A stretch of 25,659 nucleotides of DNA, taken from IMG/VR virus record IMGVR_UViG_3300028883_000128, positions 1 through 25,659 of that record; one strand, written 5' to 3'. Within the stretch, counting starts at the first letter, position 1, and every line of letters begins with the position of its first letter. This document shows positions 5,437 through 24,885 of this stretch, piece by piece. Under the pieces are notes generated by a model. The model was not told the origin of the DNA, searched no databases, and saw only the letters and a program-made list of their open reading frames with translations. The position numbers were made by a program, and so were the translations under genes. This DNA is from a virus.

Positions 5437-5781
5437 ATGATATATAAAGCCTTGGATCGAATCAAGTTCGAGGATGGACGCGTTCTTGACAGAGGCAAGA
5501 CGTCTCGGTTGGCAGGTATTCGCCCGAAGGCGATACAGTTCCTGATTGACCGTGGAGCCCTGCACGAAGTACAGACGCCTCCACTCGAGATACTTCCTGG
5601 TTGGGAACGAAGGGCTAAGGTGCTGAAGGAGCGGGCGGGAATCACCTTCGCAGCGGAGCTCGTCACGGCCAATCTCGAAGAAGTAGCAGAGAAGACGCGC
5701 ATCCCGATGCGTGCCCTGAGGGCAGCTCGTAAGGATGCGCTGCAGTACGTCGAATACGACGAGGAGGTTTCAAATGCCTAG
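5437..5781 (+). CDS. Small helical protein with helix-hairpin-helix-like C-terminus
   Basis: Unrecognised 114-residue protein. The first part, IKFEDGRVLDRGKTSRLAGI then KAIQFLIDRGALHEVQTPPL, resembles the short beta-hairpin plus helix found in small phage tail-region proteins. The second half, WERRAKVLKERAGITFAAEL followed by VTANLEEVAEKTRIPMRALR, has the repeated helix-turn-helix pattern of tandem helix-hairpin-helix or DUF4332-like domains. AGAGGAGGTG precedes the ATG at 5437 and the stop overlaps the start of the tail tube gene by eight bases, so it is co-translated with tail genes. A role in tail assembly is only an inference from location. Confidence 0.6.
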   Translation: MIYKALDRIKFEDGRVLDRGKTSRLAGIRPKAIQFLIDRGALHEVQTPPLEILPGWERRAKVLKERAGITFAAELVTANLEEVAEKTRIPMRALRAARKDALQYVEYDEEVSNA

Positions 5782-6235
5782 AACAACCGAAGGTCTATCT
5801 TTTGTAGCATGCGACGTCGAAGTGTCGCAAGATGGCGTGACCTGGGTGGAGCTTGACGACTATGGTTCGAGCGTCGCTGCCTCTGGTGGTGACCGCAGAA
5901 CTGGAGAAGTCAACGTCTTCTCCGACGAGCGCCCAATCGTGAAGGCCGGCAAGAAAGCGTCACAGGACCTCGTGATCCGTTACGCATACACTGAAGAGGT
6001 CGGTGGGCCCTTCGCAACGATGCGTACCTGGGATGACACAGAAGGTGGAGTCATCTATGCGCGGTACTGGCCGGCAGGTCGCGTCGCAGGGAACTTCGTC
6101 TTCGAGACGGGGAAATCGATCATCACGCGCTTCCTAGATCCAGGAGGCGAGGCAGGGTCTGGTGATCCAGTGTTGTGCGAGATCGGGATCAAGACCGAAG
6201 AGCTCGAGAAGAGCATCTGGGGTCCGACGTCTTAA
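5774..6235 (+). CDS. Major tail (tube) protein
   Basis: Predicted tail tube subunit that polymerises around the tape measure. The 153-residue product is almost wholly beta, with alternating strands, e.g. VACDVEVSQDGVTWVELDDY and ASQDLVIRYAYTEEVGGPF, and ends in a strand (VLCEIGIKTEELEKSIWG). This fits the phage major tail protein fold, and the gene lies directly before the frameshifted chaperone as in lambda and HK97. I chose ATG 5774 over an in-frame ATG at 5735 because GGAGG (5763-5767) sits six bases upstream and the extension would be a non-protein-like read-out of the preceding gene. It is likely among the most abundant virion proteins. Confidence 0.78.
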   Translation: MPRTTEGLSFVACDVEVSQDGVTWVELDDYGSSVAASGGDRRTGEVNVFSDERPIVKAGKKASQDLVIRYAYTEEVGGPFATMRTWDDTEGGVIYARYWPAGRVAGNFVFETGKSIITRFLDPGGEAGSGDPVLCEIGIKTEELEKSIWGPTS

Positions 6236-13100: not shown

Positions 13101-16002
13101 CGACGCGACCTTAGATCAAGTCCTGCTTTATTACAATACTGCCGACGATAAGTTCAAGGTAAATGTCAACGGCAATGCCCTTGCCAGCCTTGAGAGCAGT
13201 GCACAGACCTTCTCAGAAGGTGACGAGATCCTGTTCGTCGTTACCCTCGATTATGCAGCAGACGACTACAACCTGTATATCGATGGCGTGCTTGAGGACA
13301 ACGCTACGGGAGCTGAGACAGCCCCCTCGGGAATAGATCACTGGAATCTAGGTTCCGAGGAAGATGACGGAGCATTCCCGAATCCTCTTGGAGGTTGTTA
13401 CTCTGAGTACGCAGTCTTCGATTCTATCTTATCTGCCTCCGACGTTGGAAACCTCTACAATCTACAACGACCTCTCGTAGATATGGCACCTACTACGAAG
13501 CCTGGTATCTACATCTATGATGGACAGTTCGTAATAGCTAGCTCAATAAGCGGTGAGAGGGTCGAGATTACCTCAGACGGTATAGTTGGATATAATGACG
13601 TAGAGGAGACCTTCATCCTAAATACTGATGGTTCAGGGCAAATAGGTGCCTCTAGCTATGAACCTATCACTTGGGATACTACGGGGCTGATAGCCAAGCT
13701 CAAAGCTGTTCAGATGGATATCGGGCAGCCGATAATAGACAGTGACAGCTGCATAATGCTTCTAGGACCTTATAACCTAACTGATACTGATACCTGGTTA
13801 GGTTCACGCGGAGAGATCGCAACGATCAGCGGGGCATTCCACACCGAGCAAGGTTACTGGGATGGATCACGCGCCCTGGTGATCGAAGAAGCGACGACGA
13901 ACTACGAGTTGGCTCCTCGAATGCTAGATGATGATTCCTCGGGCTTTGCCGATGGATGGGGCTACTGGGACAACTTCGGTTCTGGTGGATCTGCGACCCT
14001 GACTGTAGGAGCGCATCCTATCACAGAGCGTGGGTGGTTACAAAGGGTACAGTACACAGGCGCAGCCGGTGATGTCGATGACCAAGCCCTCATAACTGAC
14101 CTTACAAGCGTCGGCTCATTTGCGCAGGGTGACGACGTAACTATAAGCGCCGACTTGAAAGGCGACTGGTCAGGGTGCAATGTGCGGCTGTGGATACGTG
14201 AACAAGGTGGCGCTGCGACAACGCACAATGGCCCAGCTCTTACACCTTCCTGGACGCCTAAGCGAGTGTCGTTTACGACCACGATGGTAGACGCGGGTTG
14301 CACGCACGTATTCGCTGGCCTTCACATCTACAACGTTGACAACGGCGACGAAGTAGACGTCTACTTCGGAGCAGTGAACATCGAGAAAACAGATCATCCA
14401 ACTAGTTTCTGCTGTGGCGCATTGGATTGGTGCTCCTGGTCAGGTGCCGCAGACGCAAGCACGTCGACGCGTACAGCTACAGAAGTAAACTTAGACGCAT
14501 ACGCAGATCGCCTGGCCGATCTTGACACGATGTCCTTCGTCATCTGGGCACAGATGCCTTACGATCACGATGCCGCTTGGCCCAACGCGACGTTCAACTA
14601 CTTTATGTACGTATACGACTCCGGAGGAGACGTACGCCTAATCCTAGCATACAACGCTACAGACGAAGAGTTCCAAATTTACGTAGACAATGCGTGGGTT
14701 TCTAATGGCCCTACAGAGACCTTCAGTGCTGGTGACTGGAAACTCTTAGTGTTCACGGTTGACTACGCTAATGACGAGTACGATCTATACATCGACGGAG
14801 AACTAGGCGCGTACTCGACAGATGCGCAAGCCTCAGGGGACGTCGAGCAATGGAACTTAGGATCTCGATACAACGCGATATACCCTACAAATTCTACCTA
14901 CGGCTACTATGCAGTGCTAGATCGCGTCTTAGAACCGGATGAAATATCTCGCATCTGGAATACCGCACAGGCTCCAGTAGATATGGGCTCTGCAGAAAAG
15001 CCTGGTATCTACATTCTCGACGGACGATTCAAGATGGCTTCGTCAGCTACAGGTAACCGCATTGAGATAACGGGCGACGAAATTGCAGGTTACGATAGTG
15101 CCGGTACGAAACAGTTCTACATTCAGGCCTCAGATGGTAGAGGCTACTTCGGCGGAGGAGACTGTATTCTCGACGAGGACGGTCTGCTTCTTTCATTAGG
15201 GGAAGCTGACAAGAACAAAGTAAGATGGGGATCCCTAACTTACATCTACGCCTATGATGACGGAGTTTCTACCTTCAATGCCCTAGCCTCCTGGGTCTCT
15301 GAGGCTGCCGACGGAAACCACTATGGCGTAATATACCTAGGGGCTCTCGGGTCAGGTGCTAACAACCCTTCTGAGGTGCGTCTCGTTTCAGGTAAAACTG
15401 GCGACAACACCCCACAGATAGACATCTTGACAGATACTATAAATCTACAGAACGTCGGAGGCGGCAGCTTCGCGATGAACTGTGACACTGACTTCTACTT
15501 CGATGTAACTTCAGGAGACATTTATATCGACTGTGACGACTGGATGATCTTCGAAGTAAGTGGAGGATCTATAGATGGTTTGCGTCCTGATGTAGACGAG
15601 ACAGGGTTTGTTGGAAGTGGAGCTATCGGCTGGTACGATATGAATTCGAAGGACTTTAGTGATATCGGATGCCTTGGTGACTTCTCCAACGGAGTAAAGA
15701 TAGGTCCTGGATTCAGCCCTCAACGAGCAGAAGATGCCGTACAGTTGTTATTCGCAGACGAAGGTGAGGTTGTCTCTGCGCTAGAAGCGTTACAACGGAT
15801 CAAGGTAAGTACGAAGGGCGAACGAACGATGTACGATACACCACGCCTGGATTACTCAACCCTACCAGCTGCGGCATACAAGCCGTGGTACGACGATGAC
15901 GGAAACTTTGTGCGTGACAGGGCTAGTCTTACGGCCCTGATAAGTATTCTCATGCAAGCGGTGAATGAGCTAACAGATAAGGTGAAGGAGTTAGAACAAT
16001 GA
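10102..16002 (+). CDS. Tail tip / receptor-binding fibre protein, modular
   Basis: A 1966-residue tail protein. Residues ~1-310 resemble the hub-like N-terminus of siphophage tail tip proteins (a D-x-V-x-L-Q-D-G strand, then YFAGVV). Residues ~315-500 hold a carbohydrate-binding-like jelly roll starting CENPSFENNVVDFW. Decapeptide repeats of NTIT type occupy ~657-713. Two large paralogous blocks follow (~722-1183 and ~1214-1685), each with a jelly roll and a LamG/concanavalin-like module containing LYIDG and WNLGS strands. The C-terminus ends in a helix (ALISILMQAVNELTDKVKEL) suited to trimerisation. The role is host recognition and baseplate structure. The ATG is preceded by AAGGTGAAG. Domain limits are read by eye; glycan binding is inferred. 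Confidence 0.8.
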   Translation: MALELLIGLTGSEVDHISYLVWETLTVEQRADSFVSTASFQLIDETGAAIQIAEKDSVILQDGPTKYFAGVVANIDSVNFADGKESVLYTISCQDYNILVEEVVIDQVETYGGVLDSTIIDDLFDKYLPEINSHTPGGAPPGYVQSLHVFPEIEFVDCSLREALDRIATEVETTALAGYWYIDYDKYLHYFNEEDNSPGWGLSDTPDNVTTFDYHSAVARHRESSSLVNRILIVGADVALLVQDWDSYYYYGKWFEAVVRDNTLLGVEDVVAHGYGLLSKWAFPDEYFEVSTDKEGLRAGMNLEFENSLFGTGVRTNLCENPSFENNVVDFWNFFQAGAGGSAAQDNTHTLRGTQACLLTADDVDNSRQVTDVVTVADGETITVHTNIYREDDVSARVGLYDSTNAVTRATEDAAVTDVWEPITLSWTNDTGLNADVKLVVWNLEGDGASAFWFDACVIELDKGPRPIVYIDGTMPYCDWNGAAHNSTSYRNSYYMVKQLTITWPDGCPPEPRFALQLGGQTASSSLIKGRLAADKYSSGIGPVEPGQLPICSKGWAHDLVFSATDHDTVEWDAGAITTADGTVYSIGAGNTGNMAAATVYYIYLDVDTSEVALQVTGMGPAVGRNIILVAVAFPNADATKEAEFQVFGGQGVNTFITADNIAANTITGNEIAANTITAGNIQAGTITATEIAAETITSNEIASNTITADKLTIGELLFSSADGLLLFGPANKIDQNYWYGTRNTLGTISGAFHREQGRWVGTRGLVIERTTTNHIANPSFEVDNSEWAGQLGAAVARVATNPVFGTACGSATWPAVNGTLIYSGPSAAGTFLQDDLVSVSVYLKWVSGTKQAQLGFFEYTAADAWLKTQQTAITLTSQWTRYTFTHACDEATCDHVRMFIGESDDTATNFLMDAAQLEKWSWPSSYCDGSLGEGYSWAGTAHASTSTRTATYVNLDANIGLIDGKNTVSHALRVRMPFDHDVAPTEAGMTTFFLMTYRDDATLDQVLLYYNTADDKFKVNVNGNALASLESSAQTFSEGDEILFVVTLDYAADDYNLYIDGVLEDNATGAETAPSGIDHWNLGSEEDDGAFPNPLGGCYSEYAVFDSILSASDVGNLYNLQRPLVDMAPTTKPGIYIYDGQFVIASSISGERVEITSDGIVGYNDVEETFILNTDGSGQIGASSYEPITWDTTGLIAKLKAVQMDIGQPIIDSDSCIMLLGPYNLTDTDTWLGSRGEIATISGAFHTEQGYWDGSRALVIEEATTNYELAPRMLDDDSSGFADGWGYWDNFGSGGSATLTVGAHPITERGWLQRVQYTGAAGDVDDQALITDLTSVGSFAQGDDVTISADLKGDWSGCNVRLWIREQGGAATTHNGPALTPSWTPKRVSFTTTMVDAGCTHVFAGLHIYNVDNGDEVDVYFGAVNIEKTDHPTSFCCGALDWCSWSGAADASTSTRTATEVNLDAYADRLADLDTMSFVIWAQMPYDHDAAWPNATFNYFMYVYDSGGDVRLILAYNATDEEFQIYVDNAWVSNGPTETFSAGDWKLLVFTVDYANDEYDLYIDGELGAYSTDAQASGDVEQWNLGSRYNAIYPTNSTYGYYAVLDRVLEPDEISRIWNTAQAPVDMGSAEKPGIYILDGRFKMASSATGNRIEITGDEIAGYDSAGTKQFYIQASDGRGYFGGGDCILDEDGLLLSLGEADKNKVRWGSLTYIYAYDDGVSTFNALASWVSEAADGNHYGVIYLGALGSGANNPSEVRLVSGKTGDNTPQIDILTDTINLQNVGGGSFAMNCDTDFYFDVTSGDIYIDCDDWMIFEVSGGSIDGLRPDVDETGFVGSGAIGWYDMNSKDFSDIGCLGDFSNGVKIGPGFSPQRAEDAVQLLFADEGEVVSALEALQRIKVSTKGERTMYDTPRLDYSTLPAAAYKPWYDDDGNFVRDRASLTALISILMQAVNELTDKVKELEQ
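12070..12240 (+). repeat. Decapeptide repeats (NTIT type) in the tail tip gene
   Basis: Residues ~657-713 of the tail tip protein repeat a unit close to N-I-A-A-N-T-I-T-x-x about five to six times (e.g. DNIAANTITGNEIAANTIT, then GTITATEIAAETITSNEIA). Such short beta repeats are known from tail fibre and lambda J-like central regions, where they form an elongated trimeric rod. Here they separate the hub-like part from the binding modules. Confidence 0.8.
12265..15156 (+). repeat. Large internal duplication in the tail tip gene (two ~1.4-kb copies)
   Basis: Copy 1 (about 12265-13650) and copy 2 (about 13741-15156) encode the same order of elements: a GTISGAFHREQGRW or ATISGAFHTEQGYW strand, GLVIERTTTN or ALVIEEATTN, a jelly roll, STSTRTAT, a LamG-like module with LYIDG, WNLGS, then KPGIYIYDGQF or KPGIYILDGRF and a final beta segment. 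Amino-acid similarity is clear throughout while DNA identity is patchy, so the duplication is old. Confidence 0.85.
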
Positions 16003-16352
16003 AACTACAGTTAACTGTTTGGGAAAGGATCAAGTTATGTATGGTCGTCGGAAGCATCCGAGGAGTAAACATGGCTACGATCCGCAAGGCCGACAAGGCC
16101 CTGGACGTCCTCGAACTATCCGAGGAAGAAGAGAAAGCGATCGGTCTAGTTTACCTGCCTACAGGAAAGATTCGCTGGAAACCTGATACGGACGTAGAAT
16201 ACGTCCTAGAGATCAAGGACAAAGAGGCAGCACATCTTGTACGCAAGGCGTTCGACGAGTACTCTAACTGGGATACAGCGGATCGCAAGCTGATCCTCCG
16301 GCTCGAAGAGAAGCTCGGCGCTGCGCCGAAGACCAAAGGAGAGGAGGGATAG
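15999..16352 (+). CDS. Conserved small phage protein, function unknown
   Basis: A 117-residue protein. The opening LTVWERIKLCMVVGSIRGV, then a helix (MATIRKADKALDVLELSEEE) and a GKIRWKPDTD turn, matches a pattern I have seen in phage proteins that follow tail genes (ER..L....G....L.....L..SEEE...G...W), but I know no function for it. It is fully helical apart from the short strand. I kept the ATG at 15999, which overlaps the tail tip stop (ATGA) and has AAGGAG upstream. The internal ATG at 16071 also has a good GAGGAG site but would remove the conserved opening. Confidence 0.65.
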   Translation: MKLQLTVWERIKLCMVVGSIRGVNMATIRKADKALDVLELSEEEEKAIGLVYLPTGKIRWKPDTDVEYVLEIKDKEAAHLVRKAFDEYSNWDTADRKLILRLEEKLGAAPKTKGEEG

Positions 16353-16354
16353 AC

Positions 16355-16981
16355 ATGGACTTCCCAGAGATTACCCTGAAGTGGGAACCTAGATACCCAG
16401 TCGTAAAAGACGTAGTCGTGGTCGTGGCCGCCTGTGAACAAGGTCTCTCCAATGTCAAGCTTACCGCTTCGAAGCCAGACGGCTCAGTACTATCTAGGGG
16501 CCCCGTACAGGTAGGCAAGGTAGGAGATCTACATACGTGGACTTACGAGCTATCACCAGTGCAAGTGCGCGGCGTCTATGAACTAAGGTTCACTGCCGAC
16601 GACGTACCTGATCTAGTACAAACGATGCTCGTTCAGACAGGTCTGCCACGTGCACAGTACGAACGAACCTACGTCCTACTTCCTCCTGATGCTGATGCTG
16701 AGTGGGCGAAGGTCATCGTTGAGGAGACCTGGAACGAGAAGCGGTTTACCGTAGGATCCAGTGCCGATGATGCTGGAATAGGCGACTTGGACGTACGGAA
16801 GATCATAGCTATCAATGCAGGTCACTGGTCAAGCGCAGGCGATCCGCAAGACCCGCAGGATCTGATAGACTTCTATAAGGAGAATTACCCCGGAGTTGAG
16901 CTGGTTTGCCTCACGGCCGAGACACCAGAACAACTGCGGGGCAGGTTTCAGGCCGACCTCGCTTTTACAGTGGCAATGTAA
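16355..16981 (+). CDS. Ig-like N-terminal part of a tail-associated hydrolase; frame ends early
   Basis: Encodes 208 residues. Residues ~1-95 are a beta sandwich (ITLKWEPRYPVVKDVVVVVA through YELSPVQVRGVYELRFTADD) of Ig or fibronectin type. Residues ~100-200 form an alpha/beta segment (RTYVLLPPDADAEWAKVIVE, KRFTVGSSADDAGIGDLDVR, NYPGVELVCLTAETPEQLRG) that I do not recognise as a named domain. The frame ends at TAA 16979-16981 exactly where a peptidase domain begins in the +1 frame, and the last residues (ADLAFTVAM) do not look like a natural domain end. A GAGGAGGG site precedes the ATG. I think this is the N-terminal part of one larger protein continuing at 16896-18278. Confidence 0.6.
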   Translation: MDFPEITLKWEPRYPVVKDVVVVVAACEQGLSNVKLTASKPDGSVLSRGPVQVGKVGDLHTWTYELSPVQVRGVYELRFTADDVPDLVQTMLVQTGLPRAQYERTYVLLPPDADAEWAKVIVEETWNEKRFTVGSSADDAGIGDLDVRKIIAINAGHWSSAGDPQDPQDLIDFYKENYPGVELVCLTAETPEQLRGRFQADLAFTVAM

Positions 16982-18278
16982 TCCGCTCTGGCGCGGAATA
17001 AAGATTGCTGGAAGGTACTGTAGCAGCACAATCTGTAGCCTCGGCTGCTGGATAACCTGCTGCGCAATGACCTTGTGCTTCTTCGGGATAGATCCTGGCG
17101 CGACACCAGAGACGACGAACTCCAAGCTAGGACCTGACGGCTTCTCAGGCTGCGATTGTCTGTGGTCGGCCATGAAGAGCAAGTTGGGTTTAGAGGTTTT
17201 GCAGAGAACCTCCAACCCAGGTGCTGTCGAAGCACACTTGGACACAGGCGGCGTGGCGTTCGCAGAAGTACGTTTACACGGTCACGAACACTATGTGCTC
17301 ATTACGTCCTGGTCAGATGGCAAAGGTTTCAATATGCTTGATCCCTTCCTCAACGTAGAGGGGCAACTTAACAAATACTACGAACCAGTTAGCTACAGGC
17401 TAATACGACCAGTGGCGCCCTCGCCTCCTCCGCCACCAGTCCCTCCCGCCCGCTTCCTACGCGGCTTACATGATAGGGCGGGAGGTGACTGGTTGGAGCA
17501 GGAACACCTAGATGGTTACTGCGTCATACCAGTTTATCATGAAGGGTTGAAGGGCGTGAGATTAGAACTGAGCTTCGGTCGGGTAGTCGCGCTCGTGAAC
17601 CTGCGATATAGTTATGCCGTTGATGATGGCGGCCGAGGGACTATGCCTGCTAAAAACGATCTGTCACAATTTGAAGAGGCATGCCTCAATACGATCAGGC
17701 TTAATCCTCACGCGGAGGCCTTCATTTACGGAAACGAGATGAACAATCGCAGGGAGTGGCCGAAAGGAATAACAGCACTTTCGCCGGAGTACTACGTTGA
17801 GTCCTATAACCGGCTCTGGTTCGATGCTCCCGAGGGGACGCAACTTATACCAGGGGCGATAGATCCCTACAACCCTGGTTGGGGAGATTGGCGTAAGGCC
17901 TGGAGGTATGTCCTAGACAACATCGCAGACGCCGACGGAATAGCATTGCATGCTTATTCGCACGGCGTCGAGTTCGAAGAGGACAAGGTTTTTGGGGATG
18001 ATCCTTTGAAGGGAGTTTACTACAACCTACGGGTGATTGAATCCCTGCAGGAAGTAATACCGCCCCGCTTCAGGGATTTGCCTCAGTATGTAACCGAGAC
18101 AAATCCCTTAGCTGACGGCTCGCGGGAGTGGCCCAACGCGCCCCTGTGGGTAAGGTCAGCGTATGAGTACTTCAAGACGCGTGGGGTAGCGACGGCCTGC
18201 TTGTTCAGGTTCAATCATCGCGACTGGTCTATGGGCCATCTCGTTGAGATCCTTGACGTTCTTCGTCAAGAGCCTTGA
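16896..18278 (+). CDS. C39-like cysteine peptidase fused to a clan GH-A-like glycosidase
   Basis: Predicted cell-wall or capsule hydrolase. Counting from the TTG at 16896, residues ~26-165 form a C39-like papain-fold domain: Q-x-Q-x-NPLW, then SLGCWITCCAMTLCFFGI with candidate nucleophile Cys51, His132 in HEHYVLITSW and Asp149 in LDPF. A Pro-rich linker (APSPPPPPVPP, ~174-184) leads to a TIM-barrel-like domain (~187-460) with YGNEMNN (Glu281, acid/base) and VTETNPL (Glu401, nucleophile), the spacing of GH5/GH39-like enzymes. The TTG start is poor, and residues 1-24 look like out-of-frame reading, so the true N-terminus is probably supplied by the 16355 gene through a +1 shift. Placed after the tail tip gene, it may be a tail-bound lysin, a depolymerase or an endolysin. 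Confidence 0.72.
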   Translation: MSWFASRPRHQNNCGAGFRPTSLLQWQCNPLWRGIKIAGRYCSSTICSLGCWITCCAMTLCFFGIDPGATPETTNSKLGPDGFSGCDCLWSAMKSKLGLEVLQRTSNPGAVEAHLDTGGVAFAEVRLHGHEHYVLITSWSDGKGFNMLDPFLNVEGQLNKYYEPVSYRLIRPVAPSPPPPPVPPARFLRGLHDRAGGDWLEQEHLDGYCVIPVYHEGLKGVRLELSFGRVVALVNLRYSYAVDDGGRGTMPAKNDLSQFEEACLNTIRLNPHAEAFIYGNEMNNRREWPKGITALSPEYYVESYNRLWFDAPEGTQLIPGAIDPYNPGWGDWRKAWRYVLDNIADADGIALHAYSHGVEFEEDKVFGDDPLKGVYYNLRVIESLQEVIPPRFRDLPQYVTETNPLADGSREWPNAPLWVRSAYEYFKTRGVATACLFRFNHRDWSMGHLVEILDVLRQEP

Positions 18279-18637: not shown

Positions 18638-18811
18638 TTATCCTTCACGTTTTACTTCTTTCTGTCTACTTAGCTGAATGACGAGAAATACCAGCAAGGT
18701 AAGGGCTAGGTCCTGCGAACTGAGCCCAAGTTTGCCGTAACACCAGGCGAGTATGCCTGCAGCCATTGAAGCTAGTAGGACATCGAGCACGATAACAGAG
18801 CTTATCTTCAT
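18638..18811 (-). CDS. Small two-helix membrane protein, holin candidate
   Basis: A 57-residue ORF with an excellent GGAGGTG site six bases before the ATG at 18811. It has two hydrophobic segments, residues ~5-24 (SVIVLDVLLASMAAGILAWC) and ~35-47 (LALTLLVFLVIQL), and a basic C-terminal tail (SRQKEVKREG). Size, two helices and charged C-terminus fit class II holins, but there is no adjacent endolysin on this strand and many small phage membrane proteins look like this. Holin is only one option. Confidence 0.55.
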   Translation of the reverse strand: MKISSVIVLDVLLASMAAGILAWCYGKLGLSSQDLALTLLVFLVIQLSRQKEVKREG

Positions 18812-18823
18812 CTGTTCACCTCC

Positions 18824-18862
18824 TTACTGGCTCAACTTACTGGCTCAACTTACTGGCTCAAC
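18824..18862. repeat. Three perfect 13-bp tandem repeats
   Basis: TTACTGGCTCAAC occurs three times without a gap. On the minus strand the unit is GTTGAGCCAGTAA, so each copy carries the TAA stop; the first copy met in that direction supplies the last codons (Leu-Ser-Gln) and stop of the 76-residue gene. The array fills the gap up to the ribosome site of the next gene. It looks like slippage expansion. Confidence 0.95.
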
Positions 18863-19080
18863 TCGTCATAAGCTTCGCAACACCACGTAACGCAGTCGCA
18901 ATAACTCTCGCTAGGGGTGTACCGACCATTACACAGATCGACACACCCTTCAAGGAATACCAGCTCGTCAGTGCGTGATTGCTGCAGGGCTGCACCGACC
19001 GCCAACGATAGCATCAGCGCAACTAGAACCAGCAAGACCATCCCTCTCGTACCGTTCGGCTCACAGTTTACTTTCTTCAT
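18850..19080 (-). CDS. Single-pass membrane protein with Cys-rich outer domain
   Basis: A 76-residue protein: a positively charged start (MKKVNCEPNGTRG), one hydrophobic helix (MVLLVLVALMLSLAVGAAL, residues ~14-32) and a C-terminal domain with six cysteines arranged C-x3-C-x10-C-x-C-x3-CC (residues 46-68). The domain would face outside the cytoplasm, where the cysteines could form disulfides. GGGAGGTGAGGG precedes the ATG, which overlaps the preceding stop (ATGA). I recognise no family; spanin-like, exclusion and host-envelope roles are all possible. Confidence 0.6.
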   Translation of the reverse strand: MKKVNCEPNGTRGMVLLVLVALMLSLAVGAALQQSRTDELVFLEGCVDLCNGRYTPSESYCDCVTWCCEAYDELSQ

Positions 19081-19461: not shown

Positions 19462-21954
19462 CTAGGATGCCTCGGACAAATTGTCTAGTACCTTCACATC
19501 AGCCTTGAAAGGTACATCAGGGAAGAAGTCGTGCGCTGTACCTACCATCGTGTCGTGCATCTCCTTTGCCACCCCGTCGACCTTGCTCTCTATCACCTCC
19601 ATCACTATCGAGTCGTGGATTAACAGGATCACGTTCACCTCTGGATCTGTCAAATACTTACGATACAATCTCGTAGCGCTGATGAGGTTAAGATCGGACA
19701 CAGCCGACTGAATAGGCGCGTTGTAGGAGATCCGTTCTGCCTTTCCGACGTTATCCCGAGTAAGTAGCAGCTGCCTTCTCCTCCGGCAAAAGCGGCTCTC
19801 GACGTAACCCTGCGAACGCATCAGCCTCGCCTGGTTATTGCGCCACTCAACTACTCCCTTAAACATCTGATCCCACTCAGCTGCGAAGCGTTGTGCTACA
19901 GGGCCCTCGAACTGCAAGGCGTTCATTGCTATCTCGTACACGTTTCCGCCATACAGCCAACCGAAGGTCAGACGCTTACAGGCCTGTCGATCATCGCGCC
20001 CGAAGTCCTCTCCGTACGCTGCGCGTGCGACTTCTGAGTGGTAATCAGCGCCCTCTGACCTAAACGCCTGCAACATAAACTCGTCTTGCGCCAAGCAGGC
20101 AGCAACCATCAACTCAGCCTGCGAGAAGTCGGCGTACAGCAGTTTGTATCCTGGACGAGCTACATGGGCCTCTGCAACCATTACGCCCCACTTCTCCGTG
20201 ACCTTGCTCGGGATCGTCTGCATTGGAGGATCTTTCGAACTCAGCCTCCCGGTGACAGTTCCACGGAGTAGGAAGGATGTATGCACTCGTCCATCCGTTC
20301 CCCTGTACTTACGCCACTTCCGTATATAGGATCCGAGGATCTTTCGTACGTGCCTGTACTCGTTCAGCTTCTCGATGAAAGCCAAGGCCTCTGGCGTCAT
20401 AGGCAACTTGCCAATCTCGCGGAGTTTCATCCAGCCATCCACGACAGCCTGTTGCGACGAGCGCTTCTTAATCCTCTTGCCGGCCGCTCTCGTTCGGACC
20501 TCGATGATCGGGAACTTAAACTCGTCGTAGATTATGTCGTTGACCCTCTGCGAGCTGAGGGGATTCAGATCGGGATGACCGCTGATCTCACGCAACTCCG
20601 CGCGTAGCTTCTCGAGTTCCGGTTCGATCTCTTCTACCTCATTCTTGTCAAGGAGATCCCATCTGATCTGCATTCCGACGAGTTCGGCGTTGAGCAGCAT
20701 TGGCAATGCTTCCATCATCGGGAACATGAAGGGTTGCTCATACAAACCCTGCTGTTTCAACTCCCGTTCAAGAGCATATGCGAGGCGCAAAGTCAGCTCT
20801 GTATCCATAGCGTTATACTGATATAGCACCGGCCTCGGTATTCTACTGTATCTAGCCGACTTCTTGGTGATATAGTTGAATAGGGTAGCTTCGTAGTCAC
20901 CAGAATCAAAGTAGTCGTCAGCCAGCGGTTTAAGACCGTGACCGCCCTTGCGCTCGTCCAGCGCATAGTGCGCAACGATGGTGTCGAAGTCCACATGTGC
21001 ATTCTCAACTCCTAGCTGTCCGATAAGGAACCGCAAGTCGAACTTTGCGTTATGTCCTACCCAGCGATAGCCAGGCACTGCAAACAACTGATAGAGTAAT
21101 CTTACAGTGCGTTCATCTGGCTTTAGGTACTCTCCGGTATGATACCGGAAGTCGTCTAGGAACCTCGCTTGCACCCTCTTCGTCCAAGAGCCGGTGTAGA
21201 ACTCCTTACCATCCTCATACAATAAGCTGTCTGGTATGATGTAGGCTGTACCGAAGTTGAAGGAGACGCTCATGCACAGGATACGGTCTCGCTGGAAGTC
21301 GACCTGATCTGTCTCGAGGTCGAACGCTACAAAGTTTCGATCCTCAGGCTTTACGCGTGCTGCCTGATGCAGAAGATCCACGAGACCCTCAAGAGTATCT
21401 ATGATCACAGGGGCGACGATGGGTGCCTCCAATCTCCCACGCTTGAGACGTTGCAGATCCTTTACGAACATAGGTGCTTGATCGGGATTGTAGTTGTAGT
21501 AGGCAGGATGCGCCATTACGTAAACCCAGCGCTCACCCAGCCGCCGCCAACCCCTAGACGCCATAATGCCGCTCTTGTCGTTCGGCCAGATCGCCTCTTT
21601 AGCGATCCCTCCCATAACTGCTATTTGTGCGTCAGGGTTCGTCTCGGCAACCACTCTCAACTCGTCAGCAAGTTCATGTCGGCATACTGCAAGGGCGCGG
21701 GAATAGCCACGTTTCTCACGCGGCAAGGAACATTTGATGGCGTTCGTTAAGTAGCAATCTCCACGGTTTATGCCAGCACGCCTTAAGAACGCCATTAGCA
21801 GCCGGCCTGTCTTGCCTATGAAGGGGCGCCCTTTACGAACCTCGTCGTAGGCAGGCGCCTCGCCTATCAGTATGTACTTAGCCGTACTCGGATCGCCCTC
21901 AGGTGGTACTCGAGGGCGACCCTTGTACGGACAAGTCGAACAATATTCAGTCAT
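19462..21954 (-). CDS. Uracil-DNA glycosylase (family 4-like) / DNA polymerase I fusion
   Basis: An 830-residue replicative polymerase. Residues ~1-170 are a family 4 uracil-DNA glycosylase-like domain: Cys5, Cys8, Cys75 and Cys91 fit a 4Fe-4S cluster, GEAPAYDE (31-38) is motif 1 and HPAYY (149-153) is motif 2. Residues ~205-400 are a 3'-5' exonuclease with DLET (Asp212, Glu214), HNAKFD (Asp306) and YNAMD (Asp384). Residues ~410-830 are the family A polymerase with motif A DFSQAEL (Asp609), motif B R656/K660/F664/Y668 and motif C HDS (780-782), where most relatives have HDE. Phage polymerases with an N-terminal glycosylase-like domain are known (SPO1-type). Phe664 matches E. coli Phe762. The start overlaps the preceding gene by eight bases. 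Confidence 0.93.
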   Translation of the reverse strand: MTEYCSTCPYKGRPRVPPEGDPSTAKYILIGEAPAYDEVRKGRPFIGKTGRLLMAFLRRAGINRGDCYLTNAIKCSLPREKRGYSRALAVCRHELADELRVVAETNPDAQIAVMGGIAKEAIWPNDKSGIMASRGWRRLGERWVYVMAHPAYYNYNPDQAPMFVKDLQRLKRGRLEAPIVAPVIIDTLEGLVDLLHQAARVKPEDRNFVAFDLETDQVDFQRDRILCMSVSFNFGTAYIIPDSLLYEDGKEFYTGSWTKRVQARFLDDFRYHTGEYLKPDERTVRLLYQLFAVPGYRWVGHNAKFDLRFLIGQLGVENAHVDFDTIVAHYALDERKGGHGLKPLADDYFDSGDYEATLFNYITKKSARYSRIPRPVLYQYNAMDTELTLRLAYALERELKQQGLYEQPFMFPMMEALPMLLNAELVGMQIRWDLLDKNEVEEIEPELEKLRAELREISGHPDLNPLSSQRVNDIIYDEFKFPIIEVRTRAAGKRIKKRSSQQAVVDGWMKLREIGKLPMTPEALAFIEKLNEYRHVRKILGSYIRKWRKYRGTDGRVHTSFLLRGTVTGRLSSKDPPMQTIPSKVTEKWGVMVAEAHVARPGYKLLYADFSQAELMVAACLAQDEFMLQAFRSEGADYHSEVARAAYGEDFGRDDRQACKRLTFGWLYGGNVYEIAMNALQFEGPVAQRFAAEWDQMFKGVVEWRNNQARLMRSQGYVESRFCRRRRQLLLTRDNVGKAERISYNAPIQSAVSDLNLISATRLYRKYLTDPEVNVILLIHDSIVMEVIESKVDGVAKEMHDTMVGTAHDFFPDVPFKADVKVLDNLSEAS

Positions 21955-23572: not shown

Positions 23573-24208
23573 TTAGAAATGTACCTTCGACTTATCAACG
23601 ACCTCTTCCCAGATACCAAGAGGAATCTTGACATCGACGAGGGACATCACTGCCTCGTCTACCATGTCGAAGTCATCCAGACAATCCGGGAAGGGCAACA
23701 TCCAGGACTCCTCACCAACAGATCCGAGCAATTCGACGCTCGTTCCGAAGTTCGCTCTGAGGCCCCTCGAGCTCTTTGACAAGAGCAGGCTATCGAGATC
23801 GAACTGATCCCTATGCGCCTCTTTTGACCGCACGACTGCGTTAGGGTCCCTATGCATAATCAGGAACTTGTCCTGGTGTGGCCTGAACTTGTGCCAGATT
23901 GAGACGAACACAGGGTTCATGCATAGGTAGCTGAACTTGAGGACCTTATAATCCATCTGCGAAAACATCACTGGCAGGAGTCCTTGTGAGATCTCACCTG
24001 GCCCATACTTCCCATAAGGAGCTCCGATGAACGGGAAGGAGTCGTCTCCGAGCCAGTAGCGATAGAACGCGCATGCGAGGAGGTTCTCGTACCCGCCCTG
24101 TACTGTCTCGTCAAACCAGTAAGAGCCAAGGTCGTAGCCCATCTCGATGAACAGCTTAGCTATCGCAGACGTACCTGAACGTTGCGTACCAGTGATCACT
24201 AATGCCAT
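23573..24208 (-). CDS. Sulfotransferase-like P-loop protein
   Basis: Predicted PAPS-dependent sulfotransferase fold. The N-terminus LVITGTQRSGTSAIAKLFIE holds the 5'-phosphosulfate loop (G-x-Q-R-S-G-T-S), and MHRDPNAVVRSK in the middle is the 3'-phosphate-binding R-D-P...S segment. At ~211 residues it is shorter than most sulfotransferases, and the C-terminal part is poorly conserved. ATGs at 24211 and 24208 are both possible; I chose 24208 because AGGAGG is six bases away from it and only three from the first. The start overlaps the FolE stop by one base (TGATG). Phage-borne members exist but substrates are unknown. A kinase-like or adenylyl-transfer role by the same P-loop cannot be excluded. 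Confidence 0.65.
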   Translation of the reverse strand: MALVITGTQRSGTSAIAKLFIEMGYDLGSYWFDETVQGGYENLLACAFYRYWLGDDSFPFIGAPYGKYGPGEISQGLLPVMFSQMDYKVLKFSYLCMNPVFVSIWHKFRPHQDKFLIMHRDPNAVVRSKEAHRDQFDLDSLLLSKSSRGLRANFGTSVELLGSVGEESWMLPFPDCLDDFDMVDEAVMSLVDVKIPLGIWEEVVDKSKVHF

Positions 24209-24885
24209 CATACACCTCCTTTGTCTATCCCACTCAACTTCAAGAACTCCGCCCTCGCCCTATCGGATTCCTTGAACTTCCCGTACATCACTGAGAAGGT
24301 CATCTTGGGAACTGGTGGGCCCTGCAGGTCAAGCATCTGACAGGTATGCGTCCCCACTGTGACCAAACCTAGTGCCAGGGGATCTGACTTCTCGATCAGG
24401 ATGTCGGCCAACCTCTGAGTCATGTGCTCCTGCACCCAGGGCCTCGCGCAGAATTCCTTCGCTAACAAGGGTATCATGCTGAGACCTATGAGTTTGTCCT
24501 TCGGGATGTAACCGAAGTAGATCTTCCCGAAGAAGGGCAACATGTGATGCGAGCACACTGCCCAGTAGTCGATGGGATCGACGCACACGACCTGGTCGAC
24601 CTTAGGGTCTACGTTCTCGAAGGTCGTGAAGCGTAGTTCCTTCTGTGGCCTGAACCAGTACGATAAGTAGTGGGCTAGGCGATACGGCGTCATCATCTGA
24701 TGCGGATGCGCTGGAACCTCTGCCACACTAAGTCCCTCGTATTTGCGTGCAGCGAGAGGCATCCCGCAATGTGCCAGGAGCCTGAACGCGTAGCCCACTG
24801 TTCCGCTACCCACCTTATCATAGGGAGGGTACGGGTCTACTGCGTCCTCGTACGTCGTCATCTGTGTCCTTCTTACTGTTGTCAT
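24208..24885 (-). CDS. folE: GTP cyclohydrolase I, FolE-like
   Basis: Converts GTP to dihydroneopterin triphosphate, the first step shared by folate and 7-deazaguanine synthesis. The family core is intact: AVCSHHMLPFFGKIYFGYIP (residues 109-128) with Cys111 and His114, LIGLSMIPLLAKEFCARPWV then VQEHMTQRLADIL, and THTCQM with His180 and Cys182. Cys111, His114 and Cys182 match the zinc ligands of E. coli FolE (Cys110, His113, Cys181). At 225 residues it has normal length. I chose ATG 24885, with GGAG about seven bases upstream; an in-frame ATG at 24861 also has a site. It heads a four-gene unit ending in a DpdA-like gene, so its product most likely feeds phage DNA modification. Confidence 0.9.
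   Translation of the reverse strand: MTTVRRTQMTTYEDAVDPYPPYDKVGSGTVGYAFRLLAHCGMPLAARKYEGLSVAEVPAHPHQMMTPYRLAHYLSYWFRPQKELRFTTFENVDPKVDQVVCVDPIDYWAVCSHHMLPFFGKIYFGYIPKDKLIGLSMIPLLAKEFCARPWVQEHMTQRLADILIEKSDPLALGLVTVGTHTCQMLDLQGPPVPKMTFSVMYGKFKESDRARAEFLKLSGIDKGGV

Follow-up and report, generated by a model that had tools for sequence, protein, structure and literature searches.

Several described systems approach the locus analysed here. Modular phage endolysins and tail-associated lysins are multi-domain enzymes carrying C39-like, M23, amidase or glycosidase domains. In Gordonia phages, split lysin A genes are annotated, with a C39 gene beside a GH or peptidase gene (PMC12821328, PMC10868165), and some endolysin genes have internal, in-frame starts, the two products sharing a stop codon (PMC9430671). 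Among phage structural genes, +1 frameshifting is described for cps and tsh of Listeria phage PSA; the known phage +1 sites are CCC_UGA and ACA_CCC, with CCC before a stop or a pseudoknot, and phage Ig-like domains are often joined via frameshifts (PMC5009743).

Locus layout and reading frames

The window, meaning the whole stretch of DNA analysed, is a virus record of 25,659 bp. Its lysin locus comprises two overlapping open frames, ORF A and frame B, with an offset of +1 by direct reading of the sequence, and contains the following features.

15999-16352, plus strand: 117-aa protein directly upstream of ORF A, resembled by a protein in the corresponding position of a syntenic relative (L261), judged by position and by-eye similarity of the translations
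16355-16981, plus strand: ORF A, from ATG at 16355 to TAA at 16979-16981, 208 aa, read directly
16355-16636, plus strand: Ig-like or CBM-like beta-sandwich, frame A residues about 1-94, from the AlphaFold2 model, Foldseek and relatives
16640-16954, plus strand: conserved unnamed module, frame A residues 96-200, from 46 non-redundant ORFs (alignment A4)
16869-18278, plus strand: open frame B, opening directly after TGA (16863-65) and TAG (16866-68) and closing with TGA at 18276-18278
16876-16882 and 16896-16898, plus strand: TAAGGAG and, after a 13-nt spacer, TTG, the sole candidate start if frame B were translated separately
16936-16963, plus strand: interval of the switch from frame A to frame B, a one-base discrepancy (+1), from the pooled alignment of four unbroken homologues
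16971-17420, plus strand: C39-like cysteine peptidase domain in frame B, from alignments A2 and A3, Pfam matches in relatives and the model
17046-48, 17289-91 and 17340-42, plus strand: C39-like residues C, H and D, respectively, from alignment
17445-18275, plus strand: GH-A-clan TIM-barrel glycosidase in frame B, from alignment A1, a profile match and Foldseek
17736-38 and 18096-98, plus strand: GH-A glutamates, the acid/base E (in GNEMN) and the nucleophile E (in TETN), both invariant in A1

An earlier sequence-only reading had given the ORF A stop at 16981, frame B in the +1 frame and the stops at 16863-16868 upstream of it, and direct reading returned the same coordinates. It had also named a poor TTG as the sole upstream start. 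TTG 16896 is indeed the only ATG, GTG or TTG in frame B ahead of the peptidase domain, but it is not devoid of signal, as TAAGGAG ends 13 nt upstream. The peptidase domain had been taken to start right after the ORF A stop; this requires correction, since the WQC(N/D)P peptidase motif starts at 16971 in frame B, 8 nt before the ORF A stop codon, and the frame switch must therefore lie upstream of that stop.

Codon statistics favoured frame A before the joint (+94 bits, 16355-16940) and frame B past it (+200 bits, 16970-18278). Frame B runs for more than 430 codons free of internal stops and keeps the expected catalytic residues, and has thus not undergone long decay.

Elsewhere in the window, a GT-D-fold glycosyltransferase-like protein (below the Pfam cut-off) and two methyltransferases (1-2765) precede the head and tail genes. 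Two ORFs in different frames (5437-5781 and 5735-6235) overlap by 47 nt slightly upstream of the tape-measure gene (6758) and represent a possible tail-chaperone frameshift. Two small proteins (18638-18811 and 18850-19080, both minus strand) in which hydrophobic stretches are visible by eye adjoin the lysin and are possible holin or spanin candidates. Further downstream are a family A DNA polymerase with an N-terminal uracil-DNA-glycosylase domain as well as a 3'-5' exonuclease domain (19462-21954, minus strand), which has a homologue in L261, and a GTP cyclohydrolase I (24208-24885, minus strand) with a weak QueF-like match, which could belong to a deazaguanine-type pathway.

Identification of relatives

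ORF A and frame B had no match in Pfam, NCBIfam, PHROGs or GenBank phages. When viral contigs were scanned directly for 8-mers of A and B, no relative emerged, and tblastn against GenBank phages returned none for A, B, the module of L260 or L261. Relatives came only from degenerate patterns combined with alignments: the first were obtained with a degenerate GH-A-motif pattern and the set was extended by alignment A1, while a DDAGxGDL pattern from ORF A retrieved a large viral set. Early low-score matches to ORF A (L114, L055, L049 and others) were set aside as chance. Thermoflexales/Anaerolineae genomes (L046-L052) also encode proteins whose C39-like and GH-A domains belong to the same families; these proteins have about 1130-1150 aa, or 911 aa in L050.

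Domains of ORF A

The AlphaFold2 model of ORF A placed strands at residues 5-94, with pLDDT of about 59-84 across most of this domain, and Foldseek returned weak matches to CBM4-type sandwiches for the Ig-like part. For the whole chain, no convincing PDB counterpart of the model was obtained. Residues 6-195, Ig-like domain included, share 39% identity with L177/L189/L263.

Between the Ig-like part and the peptidase lies a conserved unnamed module of about 100 aa, which the earlier picture of the locus did not contain. Its signature is RTYVLLPPDADxEWA..GGSADDAGIGDLDxR..FYxEHYPGVE, identity in alignment A4 is 46-68%, and the C-terminal half of ORF A is 63% identical to L260/L225 over 100 aa (E about 1e-37). 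The module was predicted to be alpha/beta in the model and had no significant match in Pfam, PHROGs, NCBIfam or PDB sequences; it is a candidate for a new domain family among phage cell-wall enzymes. Besides the window, module-bearing ORFs include L260, L261, L263, L264 and L256, and across related ORFs the module neighbours CBM, Ig-like, lysozyme, C39, M23, amidase or GH-A domains.

In 35 of the 46 non-redundant ORFs, the module is followed in the same frame by a catalytic domain, assigned partly by eye as C39-like, M23-like, amidase or GH. The other 11 end after or within the module, one of them at a contig edge, and in none of these 11 does a catalytic domain continue in another frame at the joint. 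A short module ORF in L271 (3698) was considered as a second frame break and rejected, the module not being continued in another frame; a DNA-methyltransferase-like ORF begins across the stop of that ORF. In a search of 300 Chloroflexota genomes (the phylum of L050), the module was found in one genome, not accompanied by the C39 and GH-A half.

Domains of frame B

In the C39-like domain, C28, H109 and D126 are invariant in alignment A2. The window domain by itself had no Pfam match; it is 29-40% identical to the alignment members, 4 of 6 of which match PF13529, and relatives in the C39 alignment match Pfam Peptidase_C39_2/Peptidase_C39 (PF13529/PF03412). For the GH-A domain, the profile match was to GH5 mannanase 8d89 (E 8e-6), Foldseek returned PslG, GH26, GH128 and GH39 structures with probability 1.00, and frame B is 49% identical to L261 over the 277 aa of the GH part (E 1e-71). 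The frame-B model had a mean pLDDT of 89, with values of about 90-91 from the first modelled residues (16962 on); a model confidence of about 91 there is consistent with frame B encoding genuine protein from roughly that point.

Position of the frame switch

Four viral proteins have the module and the C39-like domain fused within a single frame: L215/L254 (574 aa), L194/L253/L275 (799 aa), L255/L289 (808 aa) and L188 (840 aa). When the window was aligned to each of the first three with frameshifts freely allowed, exactly one +1 step was introduced each time, at 16955, 16961 and 16964, with scores of 563, 436 and 382, compared with 301, 281 and 268 when a shift was forbidden. In the pooled forced-position alignment to all four, the last frame-A base was best placed at 16951, and positions 16936-16963 fell within 8 score units. 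A switch at the ORF A stop (16979) was rejected, scoring 64 units worse. Codon statistics were in broad agreement, although their best change point was 16979, later than the homology interval; it is broad, 16922-17037 lying within 4 bits.

The alignments bear out the proposal that a single broken or shifted frame connects the Ig-like part with the C39-like peptidase and the GH-A-like glycosidase, and that one base would account for it. Comparison with unbroken homologues, put forward as a check of that proposal, recovered the predicted join; instead of homologues always encoded as two genes with a ribosome site for the second, single-frame homologues were found. The frame-B residues ahead of QWQCNPLW, described previously as unlike protein, amount to about 25 with no counterpart in homologues.

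In syntenic L261, the module and GH-A domain lie in one intact ORF. Its local order is that of the window, with the 117-aa protein (by eye), the lysin and then the polymerase on the opposite strand; the upstream 117-aa proteins gave no match at E<=1e-6, their likeness being by eye only.

Interpretation of the break

The most probable reading, and a likely one on the sequence comparisons above, is that A and B are one ancestral single-frame modular lysin gene with a non-programmed one-base break. Related viruses carry the same parts unbroken, so a sequence error or recent mutation is more plausible than a decoding trick. Because frame B has no internal stop and keeps its catalytic residues, the break would have arisen recently, reflect an assembly error, or be tolerated by way of some decoding route. 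An assembly indel is the form that we would tentatively favour, and a recent non-programmed mutation is a reasonable if less probable one; both ratings are matters of judgement and not of measurement. The homopolymers pointed out earlier, GGGG at 16938-16941 and TTTT at 16963-16966, are present, and the longest run in the interval is four bases, so this is not a classic homopolymer-error site. Unlike the frames, the homology, the location of the break and the conservation of residues, which are observations, the non-programmed nature of the break is something that we infer.

The product of the unbroken gene would have about 640 residues, comprising the Ig-like domain, the unnamed module, the C39-like cysteine peptidase and the GH-A glycosidase, with the single-base break falling at the module/peptidase joint (about 16936-16963). 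From its domains and gene position, the enzyme was probably an endolysin or tail-associated lysin. By family, the peptidase would cut peptide cross-links and the GH-A barrel cell-wall glycan, while the Ig-like domain and module may serve in binding or positioning.

It is unlikely, although the best of the alternatives, that the locus encodes a split lysin, in which A (Ig-like domain and module) ends at 16981 and translation of B (C39 and GH-A) begins within A, at TTG 16896. In ten other module ORFs the stop falls within the module, at its end or shortly beyond, still inside the contig; in three relatives (L260, L265 and L267) a separate C39-like gene follows downstream; split lysin A genes are annotated in the Gordonia phages cited above; and TAAGGAG lies upstream of the TTG. 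Yet the start would be a TTG at 13-nt spacing, and the AAG GAG of TAAGGAG encodes Lys-Glu in the conserved frame A. The roughly 25 frame-B residues ahead of the peptidase would have to be translated, whereas it is in frame A that the same DNA is conserved. An overlap of 86 nt would be needed, exceeding other overlaps between the main genes of the window. The separate C39 genes of L260, L265 and L267 open 270-1200 nt past the stop of the module gene and have their own N-terminal stretch, while here the peptidase motif begins before the ORF A stop.

Less probable again is a programmed +1 ribosomal frameshift at 16936-16963, yielding a short protein of Ig-like domain and module and a full-length lysin in a fixed ratio. 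The frame relation is +1, both sides are intact, and such shifts occur in phage structural genes and at Ig-like domains. However, the frame-A codons at 16937-16966 (CGG GGC AGG TTT CAG GCC GAC CTC GCT TTT) place no CCC or CCU codon and no stop in the interval, from which CCC_UGA and ACA_CCC are absent, and a shift at the stop itself would, besides its poorer alignment score, lose conserved WQC residues. The ACA after TTT (16964-66) is not rare: it was counted 88 times, while the other Thr codons range from 81 to 125 (counts carrying a small error). Downstream RNA (120 nt) is only mildly more stable than shuffles (z -1.82, 8 of 200 shuffles as stable). The 35 fused relatives are plain in-frame fusions, none of which shifts, and no other frame break at the joint occurs among the 46 module ORFs, so no conserved shift arrangement was found. 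Of the sequence-only reading's three options, error and mutation thus stand better than a programmed +1 shift. That a non-canonical programmed shift, lacking a proline codon and a stop, sets the ratio of binding-only to two-activity lysin is accordingly improbable; a programmed switch would make this a +1 site in a lysis gene lacking the known determinants.

Transcriptional slippage at GGGG or TTTT, restoring the frame in part of the mRNAs, is very improbable, for these four-base runs, although located inside the interval or at its edge, are far shorter than productive slippage tracts, which usually have about nine A or T.

If, as is most likely, the break is ordinary, the appropriate annotation for the record is a single modular lysin with an interrupted frame. 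The locus is ordinary apart from the unnamed module. In the ORF A half, that widespread module marks cell-wall enzymes in phages and in one genome of the Chloroflexota phylum.

Comparison with known systems

The Listeria phage PSA shift resembles the window in occurring in a phage gene with a +1 relation; PSA uses CCC before a stop or pseudoknot, whereas the window interval has no such codon or stop (PMC5009743). As with endolysins having internal starts, two polypeptides per locus are possible, but those are in frame and here the frames differ (PMC9430671). In the Gordonia split lysin A, as here, C39 lies near a second catalytic activity after structural genes; there a gene of its own encodes C39, apart from the second activity, whereas in the window a single frame holds both C39 and GH-A, and the break comes ahead of C39, with no evident gene start (PMC12821328, PMC10868165). 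In the Thermoflexales/Anaerolineae proteins, too, the C39-like domain precedes a GH-A domain of the same family; they differ in being encoded in one frame and in a stretch of about 400-450 additional residues, which looks SH3-like by eye and separates the two domains, and no module was found in them. With modular phage lysins, the window shares a multi-domain architecture, a position just after the tail genes and the pairing of peptidase with glycosidase; it differs in its unnamed module, in a GH-A barrel lacking its own Pfam match and in a frame broken at the module/C39 joint.
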